NCBI GenBank assembly: GCA_030062745.1
Contig: CP099844.1
Span: forward strand, 21,948,596 to 22,012,595
From: Capitulum mitella
Taxonomy: Eukaryota > Arthropoda > Thecostraca > Pollicipedomorpha > Pollicipedidae
Direction: 5' to 3'
Length of the DNA stretch: 64,000 nt
The position numbers and the translations under genes are program-made. The notes beneath the pieces were generated by a model, which saw only the letters and a program-made list of their open reading frames with translations, made no database searches and had not been told where the DNA came from. Positions 17,012-63,812 of this stretch are shown one piece after another. Within the stretch, counting starts at the first letter, position 1. Every line of letters starts with the position of its first letter.

Positions 17012-17013
<2 letters not shown>

Positions 17014-17081: not shown

Positions 17082-17084
<3 letters not shown>

Positions 17085-17667
17085 AAACAGTCATGCTTGG
17101 AACAGTGTACACCAATCAAACCCCTGTAAATAATAAGCTGTAATAATACATGTCAGTTACTTTCATGTTTTATCACATGCAACAATTCTCAGTCTACTGC
17201 CCATTCCAGAATAGCATGATGATGTTTCTGAAGCCTCAGTTTAGTTTTGTACTATACAAATAAATCTGGATCCACATTTTGTAAATATTGTTCATAACAT
17301 TGGCCTCTGCACACAACACAATTGTACCTGTCACTTTGATTGTGGTCATTTTTTGGTTTCATTCTCATTCTTCAGGCTACTAAAGTTAAATTGTAACAGG
17401 TAGCCACATGTTGCAATTCAACTTTGCTGGTTATCACATGCAATTATTAGACAACCAAACACAAAACACAAGACACAAAAAGAAAACAAAAAGCATAGGA
17501 CAACAAGTTCCCACGGCAATAAATTGGCTTCATCACACCTGGCAACAGGAAACAAATGGCACACCATGTCCTTTTCAATCCAAATATTACTCTAAGAAAC
17601 TATAATCTGATAGGAGCACCTGACACTGCTTACCCTGGTTTTGGCGCGAAATGTATAAAAATTTGTT

Positions 17668-27180: not shown

Positions 27181-28089
27181 GGCCGTGGACGTGACTGTGG
27201 ACGTCAGGAGTTAACGGAGGGACCAAGCTGTGCCGCACGTGCAGAGTTCGTGCATACCAGAGTTCGCACAACGCACGGATGGATCGTGGTCTTACCGCCC
27301 GGTCGGGCAAAATACGACTCCCGTTAAGTGAAGTATGGACTTTCGTAAGAAAAGGGGGCCTCTCAAGATCAAGGGGCCTCGAGATTTTGCTTTGCCCCCC
27401 TTCCCATGATCAAATACGACCCACCGCCACTGCGTTGCGGCCATTATTTTTGTCATACTTCGCGAATACCCTGGTTAAAGCTGACAGAAAACAATGAGGG
27501 CACCAAAAGCAGCTTTGGAGGAGCTCAGATCTACATTGCGGGGAGAGGGCATGGCTTCGCAAAAGGCTACAAATTGTCACCCCTGGTATGGCGGTCTGTT
27601 TTCCTGACAGCCGGTCATCGATATTCAAGGAACTCGAAGCTGAAGCGCAATCACGGCACTGTTCGGCACATGGAATTTAGAGTGATACTTGAATTGCTAA
27701 CTGACTGGCCTCTGTAATAAGAGGTACAGGCAGTGGACTAACAAATAACAGGGGTCACTCACGACGCATCTTTTTCACTGGCGTTTTATCGCGAGAACTA
27801 TTCCATGGTGCTGTTCATCTAAGCGGCCAAGAATTCTGCTCATCAGTATTCGACGTGTATAAGGTTCTGGGGCTTGCGTGCATCGCTGGGTCCACTGAGA
27901 TAGCCCGGCCTCAAAACTGCAACGTCGCGGTGACTCGCTCAGTGTCCGAATGGGCCACGTGATCTGGCAGAGGGCCCCGCTTGGTGGCGCACTTAGTAGC
28001 ACTGCGAGGATAACGACTCAAACCGGCTGGGCCCAGTCGGTGCTAGGAGCTGGAAGGTGACTGAGCGGCGCAGCGGTCCACACGCCGCC
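27181..28089. other. Upstream region of the aldo-keto reductase
   Basis: No repeat or gene recognised. No convincing TATA box or initiator can be picked out before 28090. Confidence 0.4.
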
Positions 28090-30720: not shown

Positions 30721-31485
30721 TGAGTCCGAGTTCAATTCAACCAAGCCGTAAGTCCGCTCTGTGCGCACCACACGAACTAGATCCCAGGTCCGGCCAGGCT
30801 GAAACTTATCGTGTGGTTAGAAGGACAAGATAACATGAGATTGTGATATGCATAGAGATGGCCGCTGCAACGAGCGCGCAGCGCAGAATACGTCAGAAGT
30901 CTACACTTACAACGTCCAAACCAACCTTCAAAGACTGCTCACAGCCAACATGGAATGACCTCCCACAGATCATCTTAGTGGATCCATTGCTAGACCCCAA
31001 ACGTGTTATGATCACGCTTCGAAGGATGCGTGAAGGGACACAACAACATTATTTTTGCTGGCTTTATTAAAAGACATATGTCCATGTCAATTCAAAAAAT
31101 GACTACATCACACATGCGTCCCACTCCGCAATCACATTCGTGCTTCCGGAATGGTTGATATATTGGAACAGTGAACACGTGCACGGATTAGTTAAGGTCA
31201 TATTTACGGTTCCAATGCCCACCGGAATGAGCTTCCACTGCAAGTACAGAAACGGTGTGCAACTAACACCTTCATGGACCACAGCGCAATGCATCGCGGA
31301 CCGAACGCGGCTTTCTACTTCAGCTTCTGCACGAAGGAAAGGGGTTTTCCGGCACGTGCATGCCATCCTGGATTTTCAAAACATGGCGCCGCAAGGAACG
31401 CCCCCATCGCCCGGTACCTCTTTGTGAACGCATAGTTAAACACTAAAAGAGCGAGCACGAGGGCGATGATCGTTATATATAATCG

Positions 31486-31486
<1 letters not shown>

Positions 31487-31526
<40 letters not shown>
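31487..31526. repeat. TA microsatellite
   Basis: Uninterrupted TA run of about 20 units in repeat copy II. Confidence 0.95.
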
Positions 31527-31528
<2 letters not shown>

Positions 31529-32223
31529 CGTTAACTCAGGATCGTTCAAGTTGTAGTAGGGGCTGCGTTTCGCCCAAATGGTCTCCTTTGAACGTGGGGG
31601 TTGCCATCCTGAAGTTCCTACGTTTCGAACAACCGTTTTCCTTTAAAATAGCCGTAGCCTGCTAAAGAGCAGCTTCTGAAACGCAGACAAGGTCCATTTT
31701 AATACATCCGTAATAGCAAACAACTCACAAAGGATATACGACACTGATGCTGCTTGTATCTTAGGATTGTGGGAAAAATTGTGCGTAGCGTCTAGGGTTT
31801 TGGGCTTTCTGCAGTATTTATCATATTTCATACCCGCTGAATTTAAGGGAATAACAGAACATTAGAACGTTCACCCTTTCGCGGTTCGCGTACACGAGGA
31901 GAACAGGCTATGAAAACACGTGACAAAACTAAAACTTGCACGGGCGCAGGAGTCCTTCGTCGTTGAGGTTAAACCAATATCATTTTGCAAGGCGTAATCA
32001 TTCGGTAACCAGTGCCGATAGTACAGTGCAAAAATTTGACATCACCATGGGTATGAAGATGTTTGAAGTATGAAGCAGTATGAAGCAGACAGCGTAACAC
32101 TTTCATCTTTATCATTTAATCATGTTTGTTAAAGTGAAATACAAGTTATGGCGCTATTTTTCCCGATCAATATCACTACAGCATGTCCCAATCCACAACC
32201 GCGACAGATATGACTTCCTTTCA

Positions 32224-33430
32224 CCCTATTCCCGGAGGGCTAGACGGTATGGTCGATTCCCGGCAGGGGGGCGGATTCGGCCCCCCCCCCTGAGATCTCG
32301 AGAACTACTTGTCCGATTTCAACGTAACAAACGGCAATCGATTTGCCGTGACGTGAACTGCATGTTTATAAAAAGAAATTTTCAAAATTTCGAAATTTGT
32401 GGATACAGGGGGGCAAAAATATCAAAATGGGGGGGATACTTTTGGACTTCTTATAACTCCGTCGTTTATGGACCGATTTCGATGAAACTGGCATGAATCA
32501 AGAGATTATGGATAGGGCTTTTACCATGGGTCCACAAATCTGAAATTTTGAGAAAATTCATGGGCGTTCACAGGGTTTCAAAAATAGGAGGATTAATTTT
32601 CCAACAACTGAATGAACAAAAAGGTAAAACACTTTTTTGGCTTCTCCTAGTCATGCTACGCTAAAGAAGTTCGAATCGTATTGCAATGTTGGTATAATGT
32701 TAGCATAGGCGGTGCCAGGGACATGAAAAAGGGGAACTATCATGGTCACACGTTCTTCAGATCAACTTGTGACCTTTGACCTTAAATGACCTCCAGTGAC
32801 CTTGGGGTCACCTGGAATGATCTCGTGTGCATTGGATACTATCATTAAATGTTTTCAATCATCTGAATTCACTCTATTCCAAAAATTTCATTTTATGGCT
32901 ATTGCGATATAGGGTACGCGCACTGACATTTTAGGCCATAGCTCCGTGACTTGACCTGATATCAAGCTGAAACTTGGTACACAAGTAGAGGGTACCTTTC
33001 TACGTCATATATATTCCGGGTTTGGCATTTGAAAAAACGGCGCCGAAATTATTGCAAAAAAATACATTTTGACTTTTGACCTTGACCTGACCTTGTAAAG
33101 TGACCTCAGATAAACAAAATTTTGTGTGCACATTGCCCAACTATTTAACTATACATCCATATAAAGTTTTAAGTTCTATCTTAAAAACTCTGTTTTTGGC
33201 AGACATTTTTTTTTTTACCCTCAACATGGCCAAAAATGGCCTGAGGTTCCTCCCAAAAACGTTGCCTGGCTCCGCTCCTAAGCAAAGTAGAATTATGAAA
33301 TTTTGTCGCAGCGCGTAAAAAGGATGGCTAGGAAAAGTCACCAAGTTTCGTGAAGCTGCGTCAAAAAGCCTGGAATTGGCAAGCAAAAAGCCCGAGGGGG
33401 CGGATTCAGCCCCCCCTGCCGGGAATAAGG
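32224..33430 (+). mobile_element. piggyBac-like non-autonomous TTAA element (1.2 kb)
   Basis: Inverted ends CCCTATTCCCGG and CCGGGAATAAGG, flanked by TTCA (32220-32223, one change from TTAA) and TTAA (33431-33434). CCC-initial inverted repeats with TTAA duplication are the hallmark of the piggyBac superfamily. Copy I of the host repeat has an uninterrupted TTTAAA at 1464-1469, the empty site. Inside are GC palindromes next to each end and a cluster of TGACCT half-sites, but no transposase. The other copy in the window is 54442-59751. Confidence 0.85.
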
Positions 33431-34531
33431 TTAAGGACAATGAGCTTCCGAATCAGTTCGAGCAGCACATGTACCAATGCATGATGTAACACCAGGATTT
33501 AAATGGCAGCTATTATTCCCTTCCATGGTCGAGTGCTGTTAACTTTACGATATTTTTGACATGGGGGAGAAGGGTCGAATTTGAAACTGGTGGGCGATCA
33601 TGAAATATAATAATATCCATTTTTGACTGACCTGCCAATCACTTTAGTTCTGAAGTCAAAACTCTCCAACGATGTTGCGAGACAGAGAGCACACGGCTGT
33701 AAAAAATTACTTCAAATAATACAGAAGACCCGCCTATTACTCCGTGTGTACCTAAAAACGATTCTGATATGAATCCACTTCTGTAATTTTTAATACCTCC
33801 ATCGCGGTAATCCCAAAGCATTTAAATAGACAGTTATCCCAATGTTCCACAATCAAGACAAGACTGCGTGAACACCTCTTAATGTCTAAATATGGTCTGA
33901 GAAAAATCTTATGTGGATTAATATAGTCTCACGAAGGTTTAAAATAATGGCCCGCTTGTGGTCTCAAAATCAGACCAACGATTATCCCATTTAAAGTGCC
34001 CGTTTTTCCAGTCCATCTGAGTGTGTGCTATGAGTCATCTAAAGCCTATTTTGGCTTTGGGGCCCAGTCCTGACGAGTAGCTATCAGGAACGTTAAGACC
34101 TCAAACAGCATTTCTTGGCTTGCAACCAGTTCTTCCCAACGGCTCCTGGCCCATCGTGTAAAGCATGCGGTGTTAGAACCGTTAGGTCGCGCAGTGTGTT
34201 ACAGTAAGAAACTTCCACGCGTTTGGTACACGCGTTATTAAGTCTTACCTGACGAACCTTTCAGATTCCAGGCAATCTTTGTCCTTCCATGACGCCACGG
34301 CTGTCATGGCCCATTCTTTGAAACCCGGTCGCCAGCTCATTCTCTCAATCTCTTTCCAGAACTCAGAACGAGACGCGTGTTGTATTGTCTGCTTTACAAC
34401 GGACCTAACCAGTACATCTGAACCAAGCCTATGTAAACTCTTAGAATGAACAGAATAAATATTCTGCATCGTCGTCTTGCCTGTGTCTGCGGATTCAGCG
34501 GAACCGGGGCATTCAGCCGGCACGTCCACCT

Positions 34532-37373: not shown

Positions 37374-37777
37374 CAGGAATGTCGATTTGTATTCTTTCGA
37401 GGGCGCCCGGCCCACTTAATGTTGACTTGGGCCCCTCCAATGTTGGTTTGGGCCCCTCTAATATTTGCTGCCTGTTTTAAAGGGAAGTGGGCAAAAATAA
37501 CGAAAGGAACTGCCGCAACAGATAAAAGATGGGCAGAAAGTAAGGAATAAGGCATAAAGTGATGTATCTATCTTCCTGTCTTCTATATATATCTATATAC
37601 CTATACACATGGGGTATGCACAATTTTTTACTTGAAAAACAGTGGCAAAAACTCAAAAATCTCCATTGATCAAAACAAAGTGGGCTAAATCCGCTGAGAA
37701 ACCAACATTTGGGGGAGCTTAGGTTGTCGGGCCGCTGGCTCGGCCCACCCAATGATTTACAGAAATTGACGCTCCTG
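37374..37777. mobile_element. R element: intact 404 bp hAT-type MITE
   Basis: Inverted ends CAGGAATGTCGATTT and, from the right, CAGGAGCGTCAATTT (12 of 15 match). Perfect 8 bp target-site duplication CCACAGAA at 37366-37373 and 37778-37785. Non-coding. The other copy in the window, split by the nested insertions, is 52770-61739. Confidence 0.85.
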
Positions 37778-38476: not shown

Positions 38477-40009
38477 TCCTATTCCAGCACGACCTAAAAT
38501 TCATACTTTAAATCAACCCACCACCCAAATAATTGCACTTCATCTAGAAGCGAAAAAAAGTGGATATTTTGAATCCGACTGACTTTTGCCAACATATACA
38601 ATGTCGTACTCTACAGGTGCGTTGCTAGGGAAAAGGATGGTGGATATGCAGACAATAGGAGCAATTTTTTCAAGTACAATGCATTTTGGGACACGTACCC
38701 ACACCTGTAAAGCTCAACCAGCAAGTCAGCCCATCTTCAATGGGATTTTCGAAAAACCCCACAGAGGTCCACAGTTGAAACTACGAAGCTGAATTTTGAT
38801 GCCAAAACAACCTTTGCAAATATTTCAGATTGATTTTGGGAGGCTGTACTGATGTGCTGAGACAAAAATTATGAGCAGTACTGACAAATTTGAGCGCAAT
38901 TTTTTGTGGTTTTGATGGAACCACATCTAATGTCGCATTTCATTTTTATTTTTAGTACTTGAAAGCAGGGACGGCAGATTGCATTTTCGGCTCGGGGGGG
39001 GGGGGACAATCGGATCGGATCTATCGGATCAACAGGCGACCTCATTTAGGTTACCTTCTTCCCCCATCCCGAAAAAATAACTGAATTTCGTCCTTTTGCT
39101 ATGGCACAGTTTTTTGTTATATAAAAAATTTTTCCCAAAATTTTGGCGCTAGTGTATACTTTAGTTCTCTAAAATGCGTGGATTTTTCTATTCAGGTCTG
39201 TACCCATTGCCATTTTTTAGAACTTTGCCCCTGGGCATCCCTCTACATAATGGCGGATGATGCAAATTTCTGCTTCTTAGGTTGTTTGCGTTTACATCAC
39301 GAATTCAGCATTGTTATAAAGTACATTTGTAAACGGCTGGAAGACAGTTTCCTCCCACAACATTAAATTATAACTTGACGCCCAGTAACAAAGCGCTTAC
39401 AGACAATCACAGGAGAACGAAATCATTATCTCAAGCACTTGCCAAAGCAGCTTTGCCTGTCTCCACACACACATAATGTAATATTGCCAGCACCAAACCT
39501 CTGACGTATGGATCAGGGATGGATCAGGGACGTAGCCAGCATTCCTCCCGGGGGGGGGGGCAAATTGGATCAAGGGGGCCCTCGTAACCAATGGGAGCCT
39601 TCGCCAATGGCGGATCCAGGATTTCGCCAAGGCGGGGGAGGGGGGTGGAGGTGAATTTGAAAACTGAAAATTTTCGAAAAAAATTGAGGCGGGGTCCCCA
39701 TTTTGCTGCCCTTCAGATATCAAAAATGACGTAATTTTGTTTTTTTACGATTTAAAATAGCCAAAAAAATTCAAACGCGTTGTCTCATTTCAGAAAATTC
39801 TGCGTTTTGTTTCCGAACAAAGTGGCCGAAATATGGCAAAAAAGGCGGTTCCGTCCCTCCCTTCATTTGAAATGTCTTGTCGGTATCTGGTTTGGCAGCC
39901 CGTCAAGTCCCCCCCCCCCATCCCGTAGCTTGTGGATTTTTTTATAGTTTAGGTTAGTTTAGTTTAGTTTAGTTCAGTTTAGGTCAGCTTAGTTTAGGTT
40001 CCCTCTTGC

Positions 40010-42010
40010 AGTTACAGGGGCACTTTTGGTGGTCTCGGGCCCTCTTTTGTGTCGTGCCAGGATCCTCCAATGGTCTCAGGTTCCTTTTACAGTTTCACGT
40101 GTCCCGCGGGGTGTCTCAGGCCCTTCTTTGACAGTTCCAGGACACTTCGGACAGTCTCAGGGACCAATCTGGGAATTTCAGGGACGCTTAAGCCATCTCG
40201 GGTTCCCTCCCGTCGTCCCTGGAACGTTTTTGCCATCTAAGGAGTCCCTCAAACACTAAAATGGGCTCGCTGTATAAGTCTCTCTCTGCAGTGACAAGGG
40301 CGCCTCTCGTAATCGTCTAGTCCTTTGGCCGTTTCAGGAGCAGTCTGAACGTCTCAAGTTCTAGTAGTTTCAGGGGCCCCTCTGGTCGTCTCAGGGGCTC
40401 TAATTGTTAGAGGCTTCTAATTAGCAGTCTGAAAGGTCTCTCTCTAGCAGTCTCAGTGAACCCCCTGCGGTCCTGGGTACCTTTCTTATCGTCTCTGGGA
40501 AACATTTTTGCTATCTCGAGGGCCCTCTGGCAGTTACAAAAGACCTTTCGGCAATTTCAGGGCCCCTGTGTAGTGTTATAAATCCTGTGAACGTCTCCGT
40601 TGATCGCCATGGCTATATCAGGGGCCTTACTCTGTCATGTGAGGCATATCTGGCAGACTTTTAGGGCCTCTCTAACCGTAACGACTCTAGCCGTTTTGTT
40701 GGCGCTTCAGGGGCCTCACTGGCAGTCTCAGGGGGACCTTGCCCCTGCCCGTACCAGGAGCCTGCTTATTACACTCAGGGACCCTCCTCTGGTCGTCCAG
40801 CGCCCCATAACAGTTAAATACAGTCTCAGAGGCCCTCTCATCGTCATTGTCTCGCAGAGGCCCTGCGACCTCTTTGGCGGTTTCAGGGGTCATCTGCGCC
40901 CATCTTGCCGTCTCAGAAGCCACCTGACCTTTCCAGGGGCCCCTGAAAGCATCAAGAGCCCCCAGGGTTTCAAAAAGGCAAGTGTAGCCCATTTGTGGCT
41001 CCTTTCGAGGTTCAGTAGGTCACCAACGAATCCCCGTTCAGGGGGCCCCTCTGGCTGGCCAGGGTCTCCTTATGCTGCGCTAGGCACCCTCTAAAGTTCT
41101 TTCCCTCTCAGGTGCCTCTCTGGCAATGTTAGCTGTTTCAGGGACCCTATTGCCGTGTTGGGGCCTCTTGCGGTCCCACAGAAAATCCTCGGAGGATTTC
41201 AAGGACCCATTTTTCTATCTTAGGGGCCCCTTTACCATGTCAAGGTCTCATTAACCCTCGTGGAAGCCCTCTGACTACATCAAAAATCTTCAGCTCTTCA
41301 CTCCCAGGGGCCCCTTGGGGACTTAGTCCTCATCTTAGCCGTCTCAGGGGCCCCATGAGTCATCTGGCGGTCTCGGGAATACTCTACCGTGTTGGGACCC
41401 TGTTGCGGTCTCAGAGGCCCTTTGAGAGCTTCAGGGGCCCTCTATGCGTGTCAGAGGTCATCTAGCCCTCCAGGAGGCCTCTCTGACTGCACCAAGAGCC
41501 CGTCAGGTTCTTATAAAGACCCCGCCAAGCTCATAGGGGGTCCTTTCGGGACTTCTTTTAAGTCTGACAGGGTCCCCTTCCCAGACCTCAAGGAGGAGGG
41601 GAGATCACCCGAATTGCTTCCCCCTTTGGATCCGCGCCTGGCCGTCGTAATCACGAGGGCCCCATGACGTTAAAATTACCGTCGGTTTGTAAAGGTGCCT
41701 CGCTGAAGTGTAAACGGGGCCCATGCTCACCTGTAAAGACGTTCCTGCCGACTTGGCGGGTTCCTCTTACATGTCGGCAAGGGCATTTTTACTGGACAGC
41801 AGGGACTCTTGAATGATGGTTTAGGGGCCCCTGTTGGCCAGGGGGGTCACTGCCTGTCTGTAGAGGGCACCCTATCTGTTTGTCGACCTCTGGAGGCAGG
41901 GGCAGGAGCCTTCTTCCAGACCGAAAGGAGGTCCCTTCAGAGGCTGGCAGAGGCCCTTTATGGGTCGACAGGGGGCCCTCCCCAGACAAGCAGTAAACTC
42001 CCTTACAAGC
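40010..42010. repeat. GGGCCC-rich degenerate minisatellite of L copy C
   Basis: Loose tandem units of about 30-45 bp with cores like GTCTCAGGGGCCCCTCTGG. Spacing and units vary, so it is old. It corresponds block by block to the other L copies. Confidence 0.75.
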
Positions 42011-42106
42011 TAGCAGGGGCCCCTAAACGTTCATTCAGACCACGGGCCTTTTTTCGTAACACAAAGCCTTCTTGTATATTCGGGGTACGTTTTCTTTCGG
42101 TTCGTA

Positions 42107-42880
42107 AGTCTTCTTTAATGCTTAAAATATTCTTATTTTGCTTTACTTGTCTGTTTCGGACAGTGTACGACGCCCAGCGTATGCCTCACGACATCACGTC
42201 GCACTTCACGCCTCACAGAAAGAACTGGGGCCTTCGGCCCCAGGGGGGCCGCTCGGCCGTCAGGTGGCCCCGCTTGGCCTCCAGCGGGGAGGGGGAGGAC
42301 ATGGCTCCTTTGCCCCCCCCCCTCTAAGCTACCCCACTGTAATGGACGAAACCATCTTGCCAGAGTGCCCAAGGGATTAACAATCAGTTCCATGTCCAAC
42401 ACTACTACGCACGGTATATAAAAAAAGAATCTCAAGATACATGAAGCCGAGTGATGCCAAAATCACATAAGGGAAGCATATAAGAAACATGGTATAATTT
42501 TCCCCATAAGGCTAATGTTAAATCTCCAAAGAATTGGTGGTCATGGCCCCGCCCTCCGCCCTTCCCCTGTTCCTACGCACTTATACTAATGTTCACAAAA
42601 ACGGTTATATTTCTCCCTATGAACGCCACGTTTGGTATACAAGGCTGCCACGCAGACTTGTGCTGATTACTCCTGAAATCATCGCCATAATCGTCTCGTC
42701 TTGTAATGGGCGCCGAGCATAGATATACAAGCGACATAGATAGATAAAAACAGTGTATCCCGTCTATATCTATAGGCGCTGAGAACCATCAAATTTAATG
42801 ACCACCATGTCTCAAAAACCTTCGGATTTGTACTAAATTTCGCAAAGATTGTTATCGTCTGTCTCTGATGCTCCCACAAT
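42107..42880. other. Extra segment inside L copy C
   Basis: Copies A and D join TTCGGTTCGTA directly to GATTTTTTCTTTTT-like sequence; here 774 bp intervene. No clear terminal repeats or duplication were found at its edges. It has a G-rich palindromic patch (42226-42330) and nothing else recognisable. Confidence 0.6.
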
Positions 42881-43053
42881 GATTTTTTCTTTTTTCTTTA
42901 ATAGCGTAAGGTTGATTTTTCTACGATTTTGCTTGCTGCAGTGACCGAAATTTCTGGGGGGGGCAAAAACATAGTTCCGCCCCCCCCCCAGTCGTCAGGC
43001 TGGGGGGCGACCGCCCCTCCTGCGCCCCCTTTTCCGCTGTCGCTGCTTGAAAG

Positions 43054-49330: not shown

Positions 49331-51864
49331 TATTTTCGAGGAATGATGTCTGCAACAATACACCCATGACATCACTGAAAGTTGGCGCATCAATACAAAT
49401 CAGCGCAGCGTATCATTATATGCGAGGGGAGGGCAATATCATCATGTACCAGGGTGAAGCTCTCACCGGTCTGCATCATGTTATGCATTATTTTACTGGT
49501 AAAAAACAAGGCCATACTTTGAAGCGGGGGGGAGGGGGCAGTGGACTGGCCTTCCACCCCTCGGTCAGTTTTGTCATAGGTACTTTCGTTCCACTACCAA
49601 CCAAGAACCGATTCTAACTCTGGGCATGGATGCAAGGATGTTTTTTAGATGAATGTGGGGTAAATGCGTGCGGTTCAAAATGAGTGACCTGAGTGCGGTT
49701 AAAACGTCCACTAAGCGCGATACCCCAACCCTGGGGTGGGCGCTTTGTCCACAGGCGCCATGTGCAATTATTTCAAACGTATCAGCATGACGAGGCAATC
49801 ACGACGCAAGTAGATCATACCATACGCATGCTCTTACACAAGGCTTTTTGCCGTCATAGGTATCCTCTTATGCATAACTTAATGGCCAGTTACACACAAA
49901 CTTTATCTTAATGTCTATGTTTTTTACATAGTAGCGTACGAAAACAAACATCGCTTCGCCGTAACTAGCTCGAACTCACCAGGTGCACCAAAATCCACCC
50001 GCCGCCCTTTCCGGCAGCCAAGAATTCTAAAATGGGGTAGGTTGTATAGTTTCGCCGCTAGATGGTGATGGGCGCTTTACCCAAGTGGGCGCCTTACCCC
50101 ACTCTCCCTTATACTCCTTTTAAAGGTGCCGCCGCCATAAAGCATTTTAAACTCATTTCTCTGGAATTTAGGCATAAACGCTTGTCACGACCCCCTCCCC
50201 CTCCGATGCTCAATGCCTGGATGTCCCCATATGCGTTTTGGGCACCCACAATCATTTTCCGAAATCCACACCCATCGCGCATATGCGAGACTTGTCTGGC
50301 CAACTACAACTGACGCAGATTAGGTCAGAAATCGCCAGGAAACGGCCGGCACACGGCGCTACTCAGCCATGCATCACAGTGTGCAGTATTATACGCAGAA
50401 CACTTGAGCATGTAGTGGTGTCCAGCAAAAGCGTGGGAGAGGGAGGCAAAGAAGTTTCTCTCCATGTTAAACTTCCCAAAAGTGTGTGTGTGTGGGGGGG
50501 GGCATGGCTCCCCTTGGCCTTCCCGTTCCTCCGCCCATGACAAAACAAAGAAGAGTTTTACCAAAGCCCTGATATCTCATTTGCGAGCGGAAACTATGCC
50601 CGAATGGCATGAGTTGACAGCAACGCATTGGTACGGATTGTATGGGCGTGTGTTTATGCGGCTGCGTAACTGTTTTTTATGATATGTTACGGAGAACCGG
50701 GAGAAGTGGGACGAGGGAGAACCGGGAGGCGAAACTTGCATTTTTCTTCGAGAGCCGGCGCAGTCAAAAAGGGCACCCCTTGGCCCATAGTATGAAATTG
50801 CCTTGACCATATTGCATTGCCCAATGAAATTAAAATTGCCCGTAGTATTAAAATGCCATTGGAAATTGCCTTCCCAGCAGACGGTTTTCGTATGATTTCA
50901 GTTCCCAACTGAACTCTTCCCGTCTCCTTTAAGAAAATCCTGCCTGCGGCCCTGCCGGGTATGCACCGTGCAAAAGTGCTATGACCGACGTAACATGCCT
51001 TGTTTGCATCCGGCAGCCTTACCATGTTCCTTTCTTTACAGTCACCTAAGCCACTGCGGGCGCTAGGAACGTGGAAGTTAAAATCTTTTTTTGTTGTCAT
51101 TTCAAATGAATTAGCGTTCTCACGTGTGCGAGTTTTGTGACCTGAAAAGACTGAATTATTGAGAAAGATATAAGGGTGTTTATACCTAACATTCAATGCC
51201 TGGTTGTTGCCGTCCTTTCGTCGGAGCGCTTTATCTGTCTCTCTGCTCTTTAACTCATTCCTCGGCCGTCTGTTTACGCGCAGGAGGCTCTTCGCCCCAG
51301 GTCATTTGCCGCAGCAAAGCATTTTACCACAGAAGAACCGTGTATTTGATGGTGCCGTGGCGGTTCTAACAAAAGGCAGCGTGCCAGCAAAACAGGTACT
51401 TGAAACATGCGCGCAGAGATTAAATCAACACCGTAAAAATTTCACGCTAGCTACTAAGATTTACATGGCTTTACGGGATAAGCACTGGGGCAGCCCTTCT
51501 CGACCAAGGCTGGTATGTTACTAAGCGCTCTTTTAGAATTTAGATGACGCTGGAGGTTTACTCGAAACTACGCGAAGTCGCGGCCAGGATATTACAAGAC
51601 AGACTCAAGACAGGGTGCTTCCAGTGGCCGGGCGGGGAGGTATTACGCCACTGTCGCGGAACCAAAATTTAGACCTCGACTGGCCCACTTTGCACTATTC
51701 GCCGTTTCGGGCGTTTGTTCCGTCCGTTCTGCGTCTGTTCTGCGTGCGGCCGCGCGAAACCACCGTCACGGATGGCGACCTGCTGGACGACAGGCCGCGG
51801 CGACGGGCCGCGGCGCCTGGTCGCTGCCGGGACAAGACCGCACGGCGCCTAGCATAGGCGCGGA
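49331..51864. other. Stretch without a recognised gene
   Basis: A 169-residue minus-strand frame (50687-51196) and several others lack recognisable features. 49690-49750 and 50060-50110 hold the GGGGTAA/GCGCCC motif noted elsewhere. 50690-50730 has GGGAGAACCGGGAGAAG-like repeats also seen in the S repeat. Confidence 0.35.
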
Positions 51865-51985
51865 AGCCATGGGCCCGGGGGGCTTCAGCCCCTCAACTTT
51901 TTTAAAATTTGACATTGGCACTACGGGCGTTGACCGGAAAGAATTGACCCAAAATGCTTCTGCCCCCCCCCCCCAACCTGACGAA
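51865..51985 (+). repeat. Short interspersed repeat, paired with 62005-62125
   Basis: Shared order CCCTCAACTTT...AAATTTGACATTG...AATTGACCCAAAATG versus CCCCAACTTT...AAATTTGGCATTG...AATGGACCCGAAATG. About 110 bp, non-coding in both places. Confidence 0.65.
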
Positions 51986-52522
51986 GGGATCCCGTGCCCC
52001 GGGGGCCTGGGCCACAGCTGTACAGACCAGTCCATGCATCCGCGCTCGGAACGTGCAGTCGTCGTGGCTTGCAGTAGTCGAACTTCCGTGTTGAACCAAA
52101 AACCCAACGGTCGCGCTGCCAGCCGAACGGTCGCGTTACTAGCCGTTGAACTTGCCGTTGTTCGGGACTCGAGTTGCCCAGGCAACGGCTCGAGTTGCAC
52201 GGGCAACGGGTTTTGTGTTGTTCCTCTGGAGCTCGAGTTGCATATGCATCGTGCTCGAGTTGCAGCAGGTCGTTGTTGCAGGTGACGCTGGGCTGCTTGG
52301 CCATCTTCCGTGTGAAGTCGCCTCGACAGTTTTATTTGATGGAACACCTTGTCTCGACGCTCAACGCTCAGGCGACGATCGAGAGCACGTCAGACGTCGG
52401 CGCCATGGCGCCGCGTACCGCGCACCGTGTGCCGTGCATAGCGTGGTGATGACAATGCATCACTCGCCGGGCACCTCATTGCTAGCAGGTCATGGCCAAG
52501 ATGAATCGTGAGGTGATTCCAG

Positions 52523-52636
52523 CCCAAGTACCTGACTCCGGAGACGGTGTACCAGGGGTACCTCTACCCGTGTGGCGAGCTGACCATCGGCGGCCTGGAT
52601 GAAAGCGGCAGCGCGTGCCTCATTGATGGTGAAATG
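52523..52636 (+). other. Exon-like open frame, unrecognised
   Basis: After an acceptor-like GTGATTCCAG (ending 52522) the frame reads PKYLTPETVYQGYLY then PCGELTIGGLDESGSACLID. It has coding-like composition but no family I can name. It runs into the S repeat at 52637. No start codon or donor is evident, so this is a tentative exon or gene fragment. Confidence 0.2.
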
Positions 52637-52985
52637 TATGATAACATTCGGAACACACGAGCAAAACTGCAAAAAAATGGAGGAGAAGAGGGACAGAGGG
52701 ACATGAATCCATATCCTTCTCCCCCGGTTCTTCTCTATTGTCCCATTTCACCCTTATGGGACACTCGAGCAGGGGCGTCAATTTCTGTAAATGATTGGGT
52801 GGGCCGAGCCGTCGGCCCGACAGCGTAACTTCCCCCCAAATGTGGGTTTCTCATCGGATTTAGCCCACTTTATTTTGCTCAATGGAAATTTTTGAGTTTT
52901 TTGTTACTATTTTTCAAATAAAAAATGCGTATATCCCATGTATATAGGCGTATTTGCATATATATCTATGAAAGATAGAAATATT

Positions 52986-52987
<2 letters not shown>

Positions 52988-53024
<37 letters not shown>
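52988..53024. repeat. TA microsatellite
   Basis: Uninterrupted TA run in the left half of the R element. Confidence 0.9.
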
Positions 53025-53034
<10 letters not shown>

Positions 53035-55308
53035 CTATAAAAGATAGAAAGATAGCTAGACACATCCAGGGACGGCGGACTGCATTTTCGGCTGGGGGGA
53101 CAAGCTCTGTCGGATCAACAGCCGACCTCATTTGGGTTACCTTCTTCCCCCATCCCAAAAAACAACTGAACTTCGTTGTTTTTGCTATCGCCCAATTTTT
53201 CTTTAAATAAGCAAACCTTTTTCCAGGTTTTGGCGCTAGTGCATACTTATGTTCTCCAACATGAGTTGATTTTTCCGTTCAGGTCTGTACCCGTTGCCAT
53301 TTTTAGACTTTGGGCATCCATCTTCGAAATGGCGAAAGATGCAAGCTTCTGCTTGTTATTATGTTCGCGTTTACATCGCGATTTCAACATTATTATGAAA
53401 TGCATTTGTAAATGTTTGAAAGGCAGTTTCCTCCCACAACATTAAAATATAACTCGACGCTTGGTAACAAAGCTCTTACAGACTATCATACGAGAACGAA
53501 ATCATTATCTCAAGCACTTGCCAAAGCAGCTTTGCCTGTCCCCCACACACACATAACGTGACAATGCCAGAGCCAAATCTCTCACATAATGGATCAGGGG
53601 CGTAGCCAAGATTCCGCCCAGGGGGAGGGCAAATCGGATCAAGGGAACCCTCGAAACCAATGGGAGCCCTCGCCACGGGCGGATCCAAGATTTCGCTAAG
53701 GCGAGGATGGAGGCAAATGGTCAGTGCGGGGCCCCCACTTTTCCCCCTCCAGATATGGAAAATGATGTAATTCTGCTTTTTACGATATAATGTGACCAAA
53801 AAAATTCGAACGCGTCATCTTATTTCAGAAAATCCTGCGTTTTATTTCCGAACACAGTGCCCGAAATATGACAAAAACGGCGAGATTTTAAGCGGCTCCG
53901 TCCCTCCCTTCATTTGAAATGTCGTGTCTATATCTGATTCAGGAGCCAATCTGTGCCCCCCCCCAATCCCGTAGCTTCTGGATTTTTTTTTAGTTTAGGT
54001 TAGTTTAGTTTAGTTCAGTTTAGGTCAGCTCAGTTTAGGTTCCCTCTTGCAGTTACAGGGGCACTTTTGGTGGTCTCGGGGCGTCTGCCGTGCCAGGATC
54101 CTCAAGTGGTCTCAGGTTCCTTTTCCCAATTCACGTGTCCCGCGGGGCGCCTCAGATGCTCCTTTGGAAGTTCCCATCTAGTAGTTTCAGGGACGCTTAA
54201 ACTATCTCGGATTCGTTCCTGTGGTCCCTGAGACGTTTTTGCCGTCTAAGGAGCCCCTCAGGCACTAAAAACGGCCCTGTGTAAGCCTCTCTCTGCTGTG
54301 ACAGGGGCGCCTCTTGCAATCGTCTACGTCCTTTGGCCGTTTCACGAGCAGTCTAGACGTCTCAAGGTCTAGTATTTTCAGGGGTCCCTCTGGTCGTCTC
54401 AGCGGTCCCTATTGCTAGAGACTTTTAGTTGGCAGTCTTAACCCTATTCCCGCCAGGGGGGGGGGGCGGAATCCGCCCCCCCCTCGGGTTTTTTGCTTGC
54501 CAATTCCAGGCTTTTTAACGCAGCTTCACGAAACTTGGTCACTTTTCCTAGCTATTCCTTCTACGCGCCGTGACAAAATTTCGAAATTCTATTTTGCTCA
54601 GGGGCGGAGCCAGGCAACGTTTTTGGGAGGTACCTAAGGTCATTTTTGGCCATGTTGAGGGTAAAAGGAAAATGTCTGCCAAAAACAGAGTTTTTAAGAT
54701 AGAACTTAAAACTTTATATGAATGTATAGCTAAATAGTTAAGCAATGTGCATATGTAATTTTGTTTATCTGAGGTCACTTTACAAGGTCAGGTCAAGGTC
54801 AAAAGTCAAAATGTATTTTTTTGCAATAATTTCGGCGCCGTTTTTTCAAATGCCAAACCCGGAATACATATGACGTAGAAAGGCGCCCTCTACTTGTGTA
54901 CCAAGTTTCAGCTTGATGTCAGGTCGGGTCACGGAGATATGACCTAAAATGTCAGTGCGCGTACCCTATATCGCAAAAGCCAAAAAATGAATTTTTTGGA
55001 ATAGAGTGAATTCAATCGATTAGAAACGTTTAAAGGTAATATTGAATGCACACGACATCATTCCAGGTGACCCCAAGGTCACTGGAGGTCATTTAAGGTC
55101 AAAGGTCACAAGTTGATCTGAAGAACGTGTGACCATGACACAGGGCCTATTTTAAGGAAAAATGACTGCGGGGGCAATTCTGCGAACAAGACGCATTGGT
55201 TGAGACCACCCCCCCCGGCATTTATGTTCTCCTTATTGAATTTTGTCCACTTCATATATATATTCTTAAGGAAAGGACATATATATATATAGATGCTTTC
55301 CTAAGGAA

Positions 55309-55312
<4 letters not shown>

Positions 55313-55352
<40 letters not shown>
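55313..55352. repeat. TA microsatellite
   Basis: TA run in the subterminal part of the hAT transposon, preceded by related short TA runs from 55254. Confidence 0.9.
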
Positions 55353-55357
<5 letters not shown>

Positions 55358-55763
55358 CAATGAACACTTCCACAGCGCTCTGTCATTAACTGATATGTCT
55401 TTTGGAGGAAACCATGTGTGCAAAATATGGCCTTGGTCCAGCACTCTTAGCACTTTCACACGGAGACTGTATGTCGTTTGTGCTGGATTTTATTTTATTT
55501 CGATGAAATTCGCGCTGGCTTTTGTGCATTCCGAGCCCATTAAATTCAAAGGACACCATTTCATTTATCCCCAGCAAGAATTCATTCTCCCTGGACTTGT
55601 GATCCCTGGGAGATTCGCTCAGGGGTGTCTGAAATGCCCCCAAACGTGTTTTGTGCTTCAGTTTTTTAAAAGAAGCGCACGATATGCATAAAATGCACAT
55701 CATAGTACTCCTTTTGACACACTGGATCGAAAGACACTCCGCATTCTGTCTCAGGTCATTGGT

Positions 55764-58062
55764 CACTGGCCCTGTCGGCAGCAGTGTGGCTTAGGTGGGA
55801 ATGATACTTCAGTCCTCTTAGTGGTCTCGGGGTTCTGGCGACGATGCTATTCGACGACTTGCAGCAGGTACTGCTTTTGCCCTTTATCCTTCGTCAGTAC
55901 CTTGTTGTATACTTGGATAAGAGTCACAGCTCGTTCGGCGAAGTCGCTAACCACCGCGATCCCGCACAGGACTTCCTTAGCGTTCGTGAAGCCAGGTGCT
56001 GTCTCCCAATCAGCGGAATTGGCGGCAAGGAAGTCCATGTTGATGCCGTAGGCTTTCAGGTTTCCCACCGACTTTGCGGTAGTGAAGTCGACGATGATCT
56101 TCCTGGGACGAGAACCTCCTTTTCTGCGAGATCCACCTGCGCTCGCTGGGGAGGACTCTCCGATCCCTGTTCCTGGAGTGCCGCGATCATCCTCGTCTTC
56201 ATCTCACACGGCACGCCCTCGTCGAAGAACGACACACCAGCCAGTTCTTCGCTGGGGCACCATAATAGGTGATTGTTATAATAAATCATATGTCGACTAT
56301 AATGTCATAATGGATAATAGGTGATCGGCAAACTCCTTGGAGATCCCCTTCGAAATTTCAGCATTCACATCAGGCTTGGCAGAACGGCCAGGTCGTGCAC
56401 GGAAGCGCTGACCGCCGATGAAGAACAGAACCATGCACTGACGTGCAAAACAACCATGAAAGAGACGAAGCGCTTGAATGCTCCCAATTCACTGAGAGTC
56501 ACGGAGAACTGATGGCAAAGCCAGAAGATCTTGATCCCGCAGATTATGCGCCCCATCCATCTGGCGCGATGGAACCATCTATCTGACACGTTGGAGAGCA
56601 TCCGGCTGGGGAACTTGATTCGCCGTGGAGGCTCTTGACCAAAGGGGATAATCGAGACCTCAAAGAACCAACGATGATCATCGCTAGGCTGGATTTCGGC
56701 GAGCTTCTCACGGCAGAAGGCGACGAAACGATCACTGGAAGGGAAAAACTCATACAACATAGTCTCGGCCACTGCTGGCTCCAGGTCTTCATACACCATA
56801 GGTTCAAACTTGTTCCAATCAATGAGTCTCCATCTCTTCTTGAAGCTCTTGAACAAGGAGGTCGCGGTCCCGAGGACGGACCGAAGCGCGTGGAGAAAGC
56901 CGCCTCTGCCACCAGATCGACGATATGATGACGACAAGCAAAGTGAAAAGGCCGTCACTCAAGCTTCTGATGAAGAAGCGTGTTTGCTCCCACAACTTGT
57001 CCAGTATTGTTGGAGGTGGTGTCGAAGCTCATGCCGACGACGTTGTCCGAAACCTCCCAGTCTTCCAGACAAAGCGCGACAACGTCGGCTGGCGTTGCTC
57101 CGGCTCTACTTGCAACTTCCAAACACCGAAGAGCTTGGCGGCACTTCTTGGACCGGCTACAATGACAGAGTCGATCCACCTTTTCCTTTCCATCATCAGT
57201 AACAGTTTGCCGTCCCAGTGGACCACCAGGTTGGGTGACGCGTAGAAAGAATGCTAGATTCCGTCCGCAATGGCTTTCCTCTGCGATCTACGTGCGCGCC
57301 TGCCCGAGCTTCTGTGATCGCCGGTTCAGAGGAGTCGTGGCCGAGGACCGAAGCCGTCACCGATAGGAAGTGAATTGCAGAGCGATCATTGAGCTTGGTC
57401 CGATCGAGGGCTGCTCCCTGACCAGGAGTGGCGATGTTTTTGGCTCTCCTGCAGGGCCGCTTCGAAGGCATGGCCAAGGGCTGCGGGTCATCCTGATCTG
57501 TCAATTATGTGTTGTCGGTAGGTGAGTATTCCAGCTGGGCAGTTGCCTCATGCTCGGTCTGCTGTTAATCTAACGGCGGGCCCTTTAAAGCTTCGGCCTA
57601 CTGTTGTCGTTGACGAGCTCGCTCCTCCTTCTCAGAAAGGAACTTATCGAATACCACCATGACGCCTCGGCGACCTGGATCCCTTTGGGCCCAGAGAATG
57701 TCTTTATCCTCTTGGTTTTGATGATCTTAATGGTGACGACAAGGGCAAGATCAAAAAGATTGTTAAGGTTGTCCCTAAATCCATTCTTCTTGTCAATTTC
57801 CGGGCTGAACCTCCAGAATTTGCCTTTGGTACTGGTCAAGCTTCCAGTTGAGCTTCTTTATCACGTTCCGTTCCGATGCAGTGAGAATACGGGCTTTGTT
57901 CCACACCTTCATCATTTCGCGGACGATCTGTGTTTTGACCTACCTCTGGGTAAGCCTATCCACACGGTGGGACTGAAAATATTGCTGCAGCACTTCTCCC
58001 CGCGAAGGCAGTTCTGAGCACCGGTCAACCAAAATTCGTCTTTTTTCTCGTGGTGCAGCCAT
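55764..58062 (-). pseudogene. hAT-like transposase, single-exon, decayed
   Basis: Begins MAAPREKRRILVDRCSELPS (ATG at 58062-58060), continuing GEVLQQYFQSHRVDRLTQR, MMKVWNKARILTASERNV, NLNNLFDLAL (57760-57800), then WEVSDNVVGMSFDTTSNNTG (about 57040), where the aspartate is probably catalytic. Then come a FVAFCREKLAEIQ region, HRARWMGRIICGIKIFWLC (about 56550), EELAGVSFFD (about 56240) and the tail AVVSDFAERAVTLIQVYNKVLTKD (about 55930), QYLLQVVE, HRRQNPETTKRT. I know this architecture from many uncharacterised arthropod and cnidarian proteins. The flanking termini and 8 bp duplication show that here it drives a hAT element. Several frameshifts and stops break it (for example a stop at 55849-55847 between VVE and HRR), so it cannot make a full protein. 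No introns. Confidence 0.8.
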
Positions 58063-61000
58063 AGTGGCACAGACTTCCGTTATAAAAGGTACTTTCTGCA
58101 TTGACGCAGGTGGTCCTTAAATATCCTGACGTCTAAGAACGTGCGGGAAATTGCCAGACCGGCACCGTGGGTTGCCGTGGCATGGCAAGGCGTGGTACTT
58201 CAAATATATAAGTCATAGTCTGCAAACGATGGCCAGAATATTGGCGAGATGTTGCGGCAGCTTCGATTCTTCCCTAATTGAGACAGTAGGTTGCCTGTCC
58301 GGGATAGTTTCTGTTAATCTAATCTATTCCCAAAATACATTTTCTCACCGAATTTTGGCCATATGTTTTTCAACACTGCGCAGAAGTGTAAAAGCTGTCC
58401 TAACACAGGCAGAACAAACTTTTCCATTTCCAGGTTATCGGCCCCAAAATAAAAAAGTCACCTCAGATTGAAATATTCGCCTTAGGCCCGCCTCAATGAG
58501 CTATCATCAACATTCGTCATTATCTGCAGTCTTGGCCATGCCATGTTCGTTAAGCAGATGAAGCATGCTCATGGGATGCTCAAACCCATGCACTAGGAGC
58601 AGCAAGATTGACGGTTTTAATACATGCCTGATTAATTTTCTGTTTTCCTCGCGTAAAACTCGGGTTTAACCGCCTAGTTCAATGAAGTTCTACCAATCAG
58701 GTACTGGGATTTTAGCAGGGTTTTCGGATCAGGATGATTGGTGATGACTACAGCACTGTTGGACTGTTACCGCATTCATATAAACCTTATCTCACCATAG
58801 CGAAACCGCCCTGCGCACCAGCTCGCCCTTCAGTTTTCTTGCGCTTGAACACATCAAAGATGGGTATCATCATTTTTAACGTGCTTACGATGCAATGAAA
58901 CGCCTTGGCCGCCCACCAGACAATCGCGGCATCGGGTGCCGGCGTTCTAATTACGAAACACGCTCGCCAGCGGTCACTAGGTGTTCCTGCAATACGTATT
59001 ATAAAGTGATGCTTCTAAGTGTGCTCCCACATTACTCAGTGATTCAACACATCCTTCGTTGATAACATGCTGCTTTGCGAGCGCAGCGCTTTATGGAATA
59101 CCTTCTTGGGTACGCTAGTACACCTGGCTGTTTTTTTCCTTGCATGGGCAAAGGATCTTGACTGGGGGGGCAAAGTGCCCGACTGGGGGGGCATTTGCCC
59201 CCCCAGTTAACATGTTAAAATAGGCCCTGCCATGACAGTTCCCCCTTTTTTATGTCCCTGGCACCGCCTATGATAACATTATACAAACATTGTAATGCGA
59301 TTTGTACTTCTTTAGCATAACATGACTAGCAGAAGCTAAAAAAGTGTTTTGGCCTCTTTTGTTCATTCCGTTATTAGAAAATTAATCCTCCTATTTTTGA
59401 AACCCTGTGAACGCCCATGAATTTTCTCAAAATTTTAAATTTGCATACCCATGGTAAAAGCCCTATCCATAATCTCTCGTTTCATGCCAGTTTCATCGAA
59501 ATCGGTCCATAAACAACGGAGTTATAAGAAGTCAAAAAGTACCCCCCATTTTGACATTTTTGGCCCCCTGTATCCAAAAATTTCAAAATTTGGAAAATTT
59601 CTTTTTATAAAAATGTAGTTGATGTCACGGCAAATCGATTGCCGTTTGTTGCGATGAAATCGGATAAGTAGTTCTCGAGATCTCAGGGGGGGGCCGAATC
59701 CGCCCCCCCTGCCGGGAATCGGCCATACCGTCCAGCCCTCCGGGAATAGGGTTAAAGGTCCCTCTCTAGCAGTCTCAGTGGACCCGCTGCGGTCCTGGGT
59801 ACACCTCTTATCGTCTCTGGGAAACATTTTTGCCATCTCAGGGGCCCTCTGGTAGTTACAAAACACCTTTTGGCAATTTGGCAAATTTCAAGGCCCCTGT
59901 GCAATTTCATAGACCCTCTGAACGTGTTCGGTGGTCCCTATGGCTGTGTCAGGGGTCTTCCTCTGTTACATGAGGTATATCTGGCAGTCTTTTAGGACCC
60001 CTCTAGCCGTAACAACCCTAGCCGTTTTGTTGGCGCTTCATGGGCCTCGCTGGCAGTCTCATGGGGATCTTGTCCGTGCCAGGAGCCCACTTATTACATT
60101 CGGGGACCCTCTGTCCGCCCTGCGCCTCCATAAAGCCCAAATACCGTCTCAGAGGCACTCATCTGCGGTGTACAGGCCCATCTTGCCGTCCCAGAAACCA
60201 CTTGGCATTCCCGGGGACCCCTGACAGCATCAAGAACCCCAAAGGTTTCAAAAAGGCCAGTGCAGCCCATTTGTGGCTCCTCTCGAGACTGAGTAGGTTA
60301 TCGACGAATCCCCGTTCAGTGGACCCCTCTGGCTGGCCAGGGCCTCCTTATTCCGTGCCATCTAAAGTTCTTTCCGTCTCAAGTGCCTCTCTGGCAGTGT
60401 GAGCGGTCTCATGGACCCTTTGCCGTGTTGGGGCCCCTTGCAGTCCCAGGTGCCCTCGAAGAGTTCCAATGACCCTTCTTTCTATCTTAGGGGCCATCTT
60501 ACCGTGTCAGGGTCTCATTAACCCTCCCGGAGGCCCTCTGACTACATCAAGAACCTTCAGCTTTTCACTCTCAGGGGTCCCCTAGGGACTAAGTCTTCAT
60601 CTTGGCCATCTCAGGGGCCCTATGAGCCATCTGGCGGTCTCGGGAACAGCCTGCCGTACTGGGACCCTGTTGTGGTCTCAGAGGCCCTTTGGGAGCTTCA
60701 GGGACCCTCTATGCGCCTCAGAGGTCATCTAGCCCTCCAGGAGGCCTCTCTGACTGCATCAAGAGCATGTCAGGTTTTTATAGAGACCCCGTGAAGCTCA
60801 TACGGGGTCCCTTCGGGCTTCCTTTTAAGTCTAACAGAGGCCCCTTCTCAGTCCTCAGGGGGGAGGGGGCGGCCACCCCAATTGCTCCGCCTTTGGATCC
60901 GCGGCTGGCCCTCGTAATGATTGGGACCCCATGTAGTTAAAATTACTGTCGGTTTGTAAAGGTGCCTCATTGAAGTGTAAACGGGCCCATGCTCACCTGT

Positions 61001-62004
61001 AACGACGTTCCTGGCGATCTGGCGGGTGCCTGTTACAGGTCGGCAGGGGCATCTGTACAGGAAAGCAGGGGCTCCTGAACGATCGTTTAGGGTCACCTGT
61101 TGGCCGGGGGGCCACTGCCTGTCTGTAGAGGGCATTCTATCTGTCTGTTAAGGGCCCATGTCGACCTCTGGAGGCAGGGGCAGGGCCCTTTTTCCAGACC
61201 GGAAGGAGGTCCCTTCAGAGGCTAGCAGGGGTCCTTTATGGGTTTACAGGGGGCCCTCCTGAAACAAGCTGTGAATTCCCCTACAAGCTAGCAGGGGCCT
61301 CTAAACGCTCATTCAGACCACTGGCCTCTCTTCATAGCACAAAGCCTTCTTGTACATTCGGAGTACGTTTTCTTTCGGTTCGTACATCGATTTTTTCTTT
61401 TTCTAATAGCGTAAGGCTGATTTTTCACGATTTTGATGCAGTGGCCGAAATTTCTGGGGGGGGGGCAAAAACATAGTTTTGCCCCCCCAGCCGTCAGGCT
61501 GGGGGGGCGGCCGCCCCTCCTGCCCCCTTTTACGCCGTCGCTGGACACATCACTTTACGCATTCTTTTATACTTTCTGTAAATGTTTTATCCATTGCGGT
61601 CGTTTCTTTCGTTATTTTTGCCCAATTCCCTTTAAAACTAGCTAAAAATATTGCAGGGGTCCAAACCAACATTGAAGGGACCCACATCAACATTGGGTTG
61701 GCCAGGGCCCCCTCGAAAGAACAGAGATCGACACCCCTGCATTCGAGTGTTTTATTTCACCCGTATACCAAAGCAGAACCTGTTTATCGAATGAGATTAA
61801 TTACAAAGCATCATAGGGCTGCTAGACTGTGATTAAAATGAGCCCGAGTTTCGCGTGGCCGACTTGCTGGGAATGCGTATAGTGCGGACATGACTGTCGT
61901 TGAAACGGCCGAGCATGGCTTGACCACTGACGATGAGTCTTACCAAACGGTATGGTCAAGCTCTGCTTCACAGTTTTCTCGTAATGGTGGCCTTGAGTCT
62001 GCAA

Positions 62005-62125
62005 GGGCGCGGGAAACCAGGGGGAGGTGGGGCAGCATCCCCAACTTTCTGAAATTTGGCATTGACCCTGTGGGAGTCAACTGGCAAGAATGGACCCGAA
62101 ATGTTTGTTTGCCCCACGGGTGGAA
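62005..62125 (+). repeat. Short interspersed repeat, paired with 51865-51985
   Basis: See the partner copy. The similarity extends from the CCCCAACTTT block through AAATTTGGCATTG to GACCCGAAATG. Confidence 0.65.
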
Positions 62126-62551
62126 CTTTTGGGGCATTTTGGTGGCCTCCCCCCGTTGATTCGGGATTTTTAACATCCGTTCTTTTCGTGTTGCATGGCA
62201 AGAATCACCTAAAAACGTCGGAATTAGTCGAAAATAGCACAGCCTCCAGTCATTTTTACAAAGGCCCGCCCTGTTCACCCCTCCCCCCTTACTGTGGAGG
62301 AGTTCCCGCGCCCCTATGAGTCTGTCACAGGGTTGAGGGAGAAATGGTACACGGTGTTGAAGCTGTAGCATACCTGCACTCCCAATACGGGCTTGCGAGG
62401 AACATCGTACCTGCCACCACATACCATTTTGTTTGGTCCCGTTGCTCCCCAGTAAGTCTTATCTCTCCTCCTTCAGCTCCATTTCTCTCAACTTTGAGGC
62501 TTTTTTGGAAAAAAACAAAGACGTGTGTTTTTCCAAAATATGAAATGATTA

Positions 62552-62754
62552 ACAGTGATGCTTTATCATTTCTCTCATTTGATAAATAGGTTCCGTTTCG
62601 GTAAACGGTTGAAATGTGGACATTCGAGTGTCCCATATACGGGTCAAATGTGACAACAGGGGAGAACCGGGAGAGAAGGGGATGGATCCATGTCCTTCTC
62701 TCCCGGTTCCTCTTTTTTTTGCAGTTCTGCGCGTGTGTCCCGAATGTTATAATG
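62552..62754 (-). repeat. S repeat, uninterrupted copy
   Basis: About 203 bp, colinear in reverse with 52637-52769 joined to 61748-61816. It reads straight through GACATTCGAGTGTCCC, the place where R inserted in the other copy, so it is the empty-site reference. Confidence 0.75.
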
Positions 62755-63812
62755 CATTCAAGTACCCGCCTCTTTTAATCCTGTTTTCATGGTTTAACGT
62801 TCATCGGTGAAAACCCGAGTTCGTCGGACGCGATGTGAAAAATGAACGTTGAAACGATGAAATGATGGTTGCTTTCTAGCCATGTAGCATCGCCAAAAAA
62901 TAAACGAGACCAGAATAAAGGAGAGGGCAGAACGCCAAGACCCGGGCGTGCCAAAGAACGAAATGCTACGAACGTATGCACACCGCCATGCTGCCCGCTA
63001 TAGCGCGCCATCATCCGCTGATCGAACCCTGCCGGCCAATCGAATAGCAGTTGCTTTAGCACTGCGCCGCCCTAATCCACCGAGTCCTTTGGTCATTAAA
63101 AGATAGGCTCTACGTCTAAAAGAAAAACATTAACGGCCGAGTGAGTGAAGCAATTATGAAGGCTCGTTACATAATTTATGAAGGTCCGTTTCAGAAAATA
63201 AGTGCTTGTGGTCTCTCGGAAATCCTTCTTATTCTGTCTCTCAGCTAAGTGTTGGCCGCATTGAAAGGCTAGGAATAAGCGAATCCCCTGTGTCTTTTCC
63301 TCTGGACCAACCATAGTTATCCTACTGCCTAAGGAACATTTGGAATGTAGCAGAAACTAGCACCTCTTCAGTCAAAAGGGCAATGACGTCATCAAGCATG
63401 TCAACTGAATGGAAGCCCAGGTAGCAATTTTCATGTCCTTGGTTGGGTGCTCGAACGTCTGGTTTGTAAGTTGTGAACATCATAGTCGCTCGGCGTTGCG
63501 TGATATATACGGCATTGCAGATTTGAGAGCTGCGATGCCGCTGGGCATGTGGATCGTGGTAGGCTAAAAGATACAGTGACGTTAAGTCAAAAGCAAAAAC
63601 CACATAGGACGGCTGGGCAGCGTGCGGGCAAGCGCTGTTGAAATAGGATCTTGGCACCAGGCAAGGCCTTACGCACCGTATTGAGTTTAATCAACTCTTG
63701 TGCACTGGGTCTTGCGCTGTTCGTACATTTGAATAAATTTTTAGTCACTTCATCAGCAACCATAGGTACCAGAACACCAGCCAGTTTTGAGGCCCCTGTT
63801 GGTGAAGGGGAA
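62755..63812. other. Upstream region of the cullin-4 exon
   Basis: No repeat or gene recognised. The frame of the cullin exon is open back to 63651 (54 codons) but reads nothing cullin-like there. An acceptor-like CAACCATAG (ending near 63765) suggests that the exon may start close to 63766. Confidence 0.4.

Follow-up and report, generated by a model that had tools for sequence, protein, structure and literature searches.

According to published descriptions, transposable elements commonly insert into one another in maize and in diverse eukaryotes (PMC2773423, PMC2672092), and family chronologies are derived from frequencies tallied over many such nested insertions (PMC3014933). hAT elements are characterised by a size of 2.5-5 kb, TIRs of 10-25 bp and an 8-bp target duplication, or TSD (PMC3942097). 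The locus presented here lies in a stretch of 64,000 nucleotides from Capitulum mitella (hereafter the window, on contig C6), and its families were searched for across the whole genome, 477 Mb in 16 contigs. It almost certainly arose when four elements (R, L, P and H) inserted in succession, by cut-and-paste transposition, into one arm of S, a local inverted duplication. As a nest it is unremarkable, and the rarity ascribed to it in an earlier note on this DNA is not supported by the published descriptions cited above.

The nested pattern was recovered by comparison of the window with itself. From the outside inwards, the layers are S (52633-52769 and 61748-61813, inverted relative to 62556-62758), R (52770-53066 and 61552-61739), L (53067-54441 and 59756-61543), P (54442-55140 and 59238-59751) and H (55141-59229), which has no second copy within the window. 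After removal of the inserts by script, S, R, L and P were each colinear with an uninterrupted copy that reads on through the target, and in four insertions out of four the target duplication had a single counterpart in that copy. R is flanked by CACTCGAG (52762-52769) and CATTCGAG (61740-61747), found once in S as CACTCGAA; L by GACACATC on both sides (53059-53066 and 61544-61551), found once in R as GATACATC; P by TTAA (54438-54441 and 59752-59755); and H by CCATGACA (55133-55140 and 59230-59237), found once in P as CCATGATA. Chance identity of random pairs from the window was 8.5e-5 for 8-mers and 0.0042 for 4-mers. The positions of layers and TSDs proposed in the earlier note were borne out within a few bases, its uninterrupted references for S, R, L and P all gave colinear pairwise alignments, and the insertion order it put forward is backed by this anatomy, with separate support from how far each copy diverges from the majority of its family (see below). 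An old hAT-type MITE, R, entered the S arm first; a non-autonomous hAT-type element, L, followed into R; the TTAA-specific, piggyBac-like P, also non-autonomous, then entered L; and the full-size hAT-type element H came last, into P. The transposase superfamilies named here are putative, being assigned from TSDs and termini.

Subject to the search skipping very common words, such that an absent match does not prove rarity, two whole-genome queries with S returned 3 and 2 first-look candidates, namely both copies at this locus and a 53-base partial match on contig C1 (85%, E 1.7e-7). Since only these were recovered, S is better explained by a local inverted duplication than by a repeat family. 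Its left part (52633..52769, minus strand, the last 8 bases being the left TSD of R) is 81% identical to the reverse complement of 62624-62758. Its right part (61740..61813, minus strand, the first 8 bases being the right TSD of R) displayed 81.7% identity (E 2e-11), with a score of 76 against a maximum of 31 over 3000 random placements. Joined, both parts aligned over 52633..61813 versus 62758..62556 with 164 matches in 206 columns. S could instead descend from an ancient mobile element, its other copies having disappeared or decayed past recognition, which would make the nest one of five element layers. The partial match on C1 and the omission of very common words leave room for this reading, but it is rather improbable given the few candidates, a second copy (62556..62758, plus strand) lying inverted only 742 bp from the first, no recognisable TSD at the ends of S and a TIR not above random (score 16, random 95% level 17). 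Of the many dispersed copies, the TIR and the TSD that define a dispersed repeat or MITE, none was found for S. Considering S as a local inverted duplication, the five-layer nest announced earlier keeps its four transposon insertions with TSDs and loses S as a repeat family, only two full copies having been found, both at this locus. Two other identities were considered for S and rejected: the window holds no tRNA gene from which it might derive (ARAGORN, bacterial code), and no Rfam family of structured RNA was found at 52000-63000. Two stretches flanking the nest (51857-51959 and 62006-62106) are in the same orientation and 73% alike over 104 columns.

Element R (52770..61739, minus strand) is a putative hAT-type MITE of ~390 bp without inserts and microsatellite, with TIRs CAGGGGCGTC / CAGGGGTGTC. 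Flanked by its TSD, the nest copy is colinear with the reverse complement of 37374-37777, an uninterrupted plus-strand copy with the perfect TSD CCACAGAA. The microsatellite, an (AT)n tract at 52963..53046, adjoins the L insertion and is mostly missing from the other copy; 79 of the 97 gap columns in the alignment to this reference fall at 52940-53062. Both window copies displayed 8-bp TSDs, the nest one with 1 mismatch. Elsewhere, two comparable 8-mers were obtained for 6 of the 14 fetched copies (1, 1, 3, 3, 4 and 5 mismatches), the other 8 having unclear ends or too little flank. Genome searches gave 4357 first-look candidates with the other window copy and 2878 with the left half of the nest copy, the best 40 of which were scored in each case; these are candidates and not copy counts.

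Element L (53067..61543, plus strand; TIRs CAGGGACGGCG / CAGCGACGGCG) measures 3163 bp without its insert and is probably a non-autonomous hAT-type element; no Pfam transposase match was found in it. The nest copy shares 2908 of 3134 aligned bases with the reverse complement of 4371-7612, an uninterrupted minus-strand copy flanked by CATGGCCC. A further copy (38966..43045, plus strand, TSD CTTGAAAG) carries ~775 extra bp near 42107-42880 that are absent from the other window copies and display no clear TSD by eye. All three full-length window copies have an 8-bp TSD. A third, partial L copy besides that of the nest contains a 297-bp hAT-type MITE (25275-25571, TIR ACGTAGCCAA, TSD GTCCCGCG/GCCCCGCG). 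The left half of L yielded 3290 first-look candidates in the genome (candidates, not copy counts), the best 40 of which were scored.

At the site occupied by P, the remaining full-length L copies in the window read TCAA and TGAA, and the partial one TCCA. Among 29 other genomic L copies it is TCAA in 25, TTAA in 3 and TGAA in 1; since TTAA is present at this site in only 3 of 29, P landed in a TTAA carried by a minority of L copies. Without P, the nest copy of L contains 9 TTAA, against 9.9 expected from composition.

Element P (54442..59751, plus strand, TTAA on both sides) is 1213 bp long without its insert. We take it to be piggyBac-like from its TTAA target and CCCT termini; TTAA targets occur in other superfamilies too, e.g. 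Kolobok. In contrast to the piggyBac superfamily, no transposase was found in P: there was no Pfam transposase match, and a single frame of at least 80 aa overlaps the nest copy. Outside the nest, 27 of 28 full-length copies displayed TTAA/TTAA and one TTAG/TTAG. Its left half gave 5289 first-look candidates (again not copy counts), the best 40 of which were scored. The second window copy (32224..33430, minus strand, flanks TTCA / TTAA) is hosted by an older repeat at 30722-34531, whose relative at 1-2568 (K2P 0.114) keeps the empty TTAA at 1465-1468. Nesting therefore recurs in the window, in this repeat and with the 297-bp MITE in the partial L copy. P also contains AGGTCA hexamers, a motif resembling nuclear-receptor half-sites: there are 9 per window copy (54442-55140; 32740-33430), of which 8 are common to both copies and form two clusters, located within the two longest blocks of identity. 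Over the nest copy and the 28 full-length ones, their variation was 0.0051 versus 0.0149 for random hexamer sets, a value reached by 3.7% of 5000 sets, which is a weak indication of low variation.

Element H (55141..59229, minus strand) is a putative hAT-type element of 4089 bp with a 15-bp TIR, CAGGGCCTATTTTAA. Its right 1200 bases gave 743 first-look candidates (not a copy count), the best 40 of which scored at 97-100% identity. Ten further copies were checked, drawn from the top portion of the 39 scored matches outside the nest, and each of them has its two ends and a perfect 8-bp TSD; the 8-bp TSD, short TIR and 2.5-5 kb size of hAT elements are thus displayed by the nest copy and by all ten. 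A transposase-like gene lies at ~55847-58060 on the minus strand (extent by eye) and is broken, as in 11 of the 11 other copies read. In the gene region, six of these are 98.7-99.6% identical to the nest copy and contain similar short frames, the longest of 197 or 217 aa; in five more distant ones (95.8-97.5%) the longest frame does not exceed 243 aa. The motifs FDTTSNNTG, ACRHH and RARWM presumably recall hAT-like transposases, without support from Pfam: no match exceeded the cut-off, 8 pieces giving two weak non-transposase matches (E 0.077 and 0.07) and two read-through pieces another one (E 0.2, below cut-off). PDB searches with two pieces gave nothing usable (the best match, 2.5e-5 over 25 residues to a chain named dTor_6x35L, contained no stretch that passed by itself and was disregarded), the predicted structure of one piece was unusable with a mean pLDDT of 38.4, and a scan of viral contigs found no relatives of H. 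In the gene, at 56262-56325, two occurrences of ATAATAGGTGAT spaced 52 bp apart bracket a 40-bp insert.

With nearly identical copies, H is young. Since the young copies read share the broken gene, we infer that they spread after it broke, by means of a transposase supplied from elsewhere (in trans). H may be a case of a full-size element multiplying with its own gene already broken. The gene might alternatively be intact but split by introns, in which case H could be autonomous. Indeed, copies have the same open stretches, a 173-aa piece matched the best 150 of 1157 candidates at 89-100%, all in frames of 193-246 aa, and several exons are possible in hAT genes, five being given for BuT2 (PMC3942097). 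However, in the five more distant copies the mismatches of the longest stretch show no third-position excess, with 38 at the first codon position, 39 at the second and 20 at the third (although the copies share ancestry), and the recognisable stretches are interrupted by in-frame stops, as judged by eye. An intron-split gene is thus unlikely, and a broken gene mobilised in trans is preferred.

The relationship between H and L is reversed elsewhere in the genome. Of the 29 other L copies, 6 (L035, L037, L038, L040, L041 and L042) are located inside a relative of H. The H sequence in the 1500 bases upstream is 96.3-96.7% identical and ends at H position 57214 in all of them, and the flank CTGCCGTC is common to six of the 29. 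In L035, L037 and L038, the outer ends of the composite are H termini with the perfect TSDs CCATTAGA, CTGCAGGC and CAGAGGAC, respectively, at lengths of ~7265, 7271 and 7295 bases, so that at every locus with both ends read (three of three) the composite is bordered by an individual, perfect 8-bp TSD. Both termini are also present in L041, where the 3 left flanking bases read agree; for L040 and L042 the fetched stretch covers the left terminus and stops short of the right end. Since the composites have their own TSDs, a single L-in-H insertion would have reached several loci by moving as a whole. With the gene broken in the H copies read, the transposase spreading both H and L would be that of another element. 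It is quite likely, then, that a member of the H family bearing L in its middle moved as a single 7.3-kb unit and that these families nest both ways. The order in the window is the opposite one, H being inside P inside L, and no single nest can therefore yield a family chronology: it orders events, not families. Nested pairs can be copied, and tools treating every nesting as an independent event would miscount. The complete chronology of five families proposed in the earlier note falls for this reason and also because S is not dispersed, as far as the searches show. Neither the nest nor the H-L composite was found in the literature by title or abstract, from which no novelty is claimed.

Divergence of the nest copies from family majorities was graded in agreement with the nesting order R > L > P > H. 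It amounted to 31/376 or 8.2% for R (14 copies; halves 9/189 and 22/187), 52/1362 or 3.8% for the left half of L (29 copies, 6 of them from one composite and not independent), 23/1205 or 1.9% for P (28 full-length copies) and 13/2300 or 0.6% for the gene region of H (6 copies). Each step was significant (R > L, p 0.0009; L > P, p 0.0046; P > H, p 0.0003). These values are relative, uncalibrated in years, and concern best matches, a non-random sample: the best to the nest copy for P and L (one further P locus, not full-length, was dropped), 14 of the best to the other window copy for R and 6 of the best for H. Within their samples, the nest copies ranked 28 of 29 for P and 29 of 30 for L in divergence; either they are older than most sampled copies or the sampling favours young ones.

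Two other clocks were tried and rejected. K2P distances between window copies (S 0.214; R halves 0.129 and 0.233; L 0.076 and 0.153; P 0.081) left the order of L and P invisible (0.076 versus 0.081), and they were superseded by the genome samples, in which L and P have closer copies than those of the window. The earlier note had also seen the decay of TSDs as agreeing with the insertion order. That of R is indeed imperfect and the inner ones perfect, but the observed pattern has a probability of 0.18 under graded ages and of up to 0.12 under a single age, which makes it weak evidence. Elsewhere in the genome, TSDs are retained in the young families H and P; those of R are mostly unclear. Three of nine window TSDs are imperfect: mismatches number 1/8 in the nest R, 1/4 in the reference copy of P and 1/8 in the MITE of the partial L copy, and 0 in the other R copy, the three full-length L copies, H (0/8) and the nest P (0/4).

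The existence of composites moved as a unit, such as L in its H relative, raises the case of some layers having arrived here jointly, in fewer than four events. This is very unlikely given the graded divergence and the L-P junction, which was present just at the nest among the best 40 of 2706 candidates. A chimeric assembly, to which a 500-N gap flanked by 99.7% duplicates elsewhere in the window might point, can be dismissed for a nest that contains no N and displays four matching target duplications with single-copy counterparts. Four successive insertions at this locus are thus retained. The duplicates on either side of the gap (8774-12965 and 13466-17667; 99.7% and 97.6%) are probably both haplotypes placed in tandem. 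Three further frames in the window match a TNP-like RNase H C-terminal domain (18618-19715, 4e-12), reverse transcriptase (22628-23188, 4e-6, which falls short of the cut-off) and aldo-keto reductase, the last of them without interruption (28000-29058, 5e-53).

Compared with the hAT superfamily and its MITEs as presented in PMC3942097, the locus displays the same 8-bp TSDs, short TIRs starting with CAGGG and coexistence of a full-size element (H) with non-autonomous ones (R and L); H differs by combining autonomous size with a gene that is broken in the copies read and has no Pfam transposase match. The nested clusters of maize (PMC2773423) and those treated by REANNOTATE (PMC2672092) and TinT (PMC3014933) resemble it in having younger elements lodged within older ones, with the order deduced from containment. 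As described there, they mostly consist of LTR retrotransposons or primate Alu, whereas the four layers found here resemble DNA transposons. The locus provides a clean internal test of history read from nesting: unlike in those clusters, as far as their descriptions go, the order is confirmed here by divergence from family majorities, containment and divergence agreeing across all four insertions.
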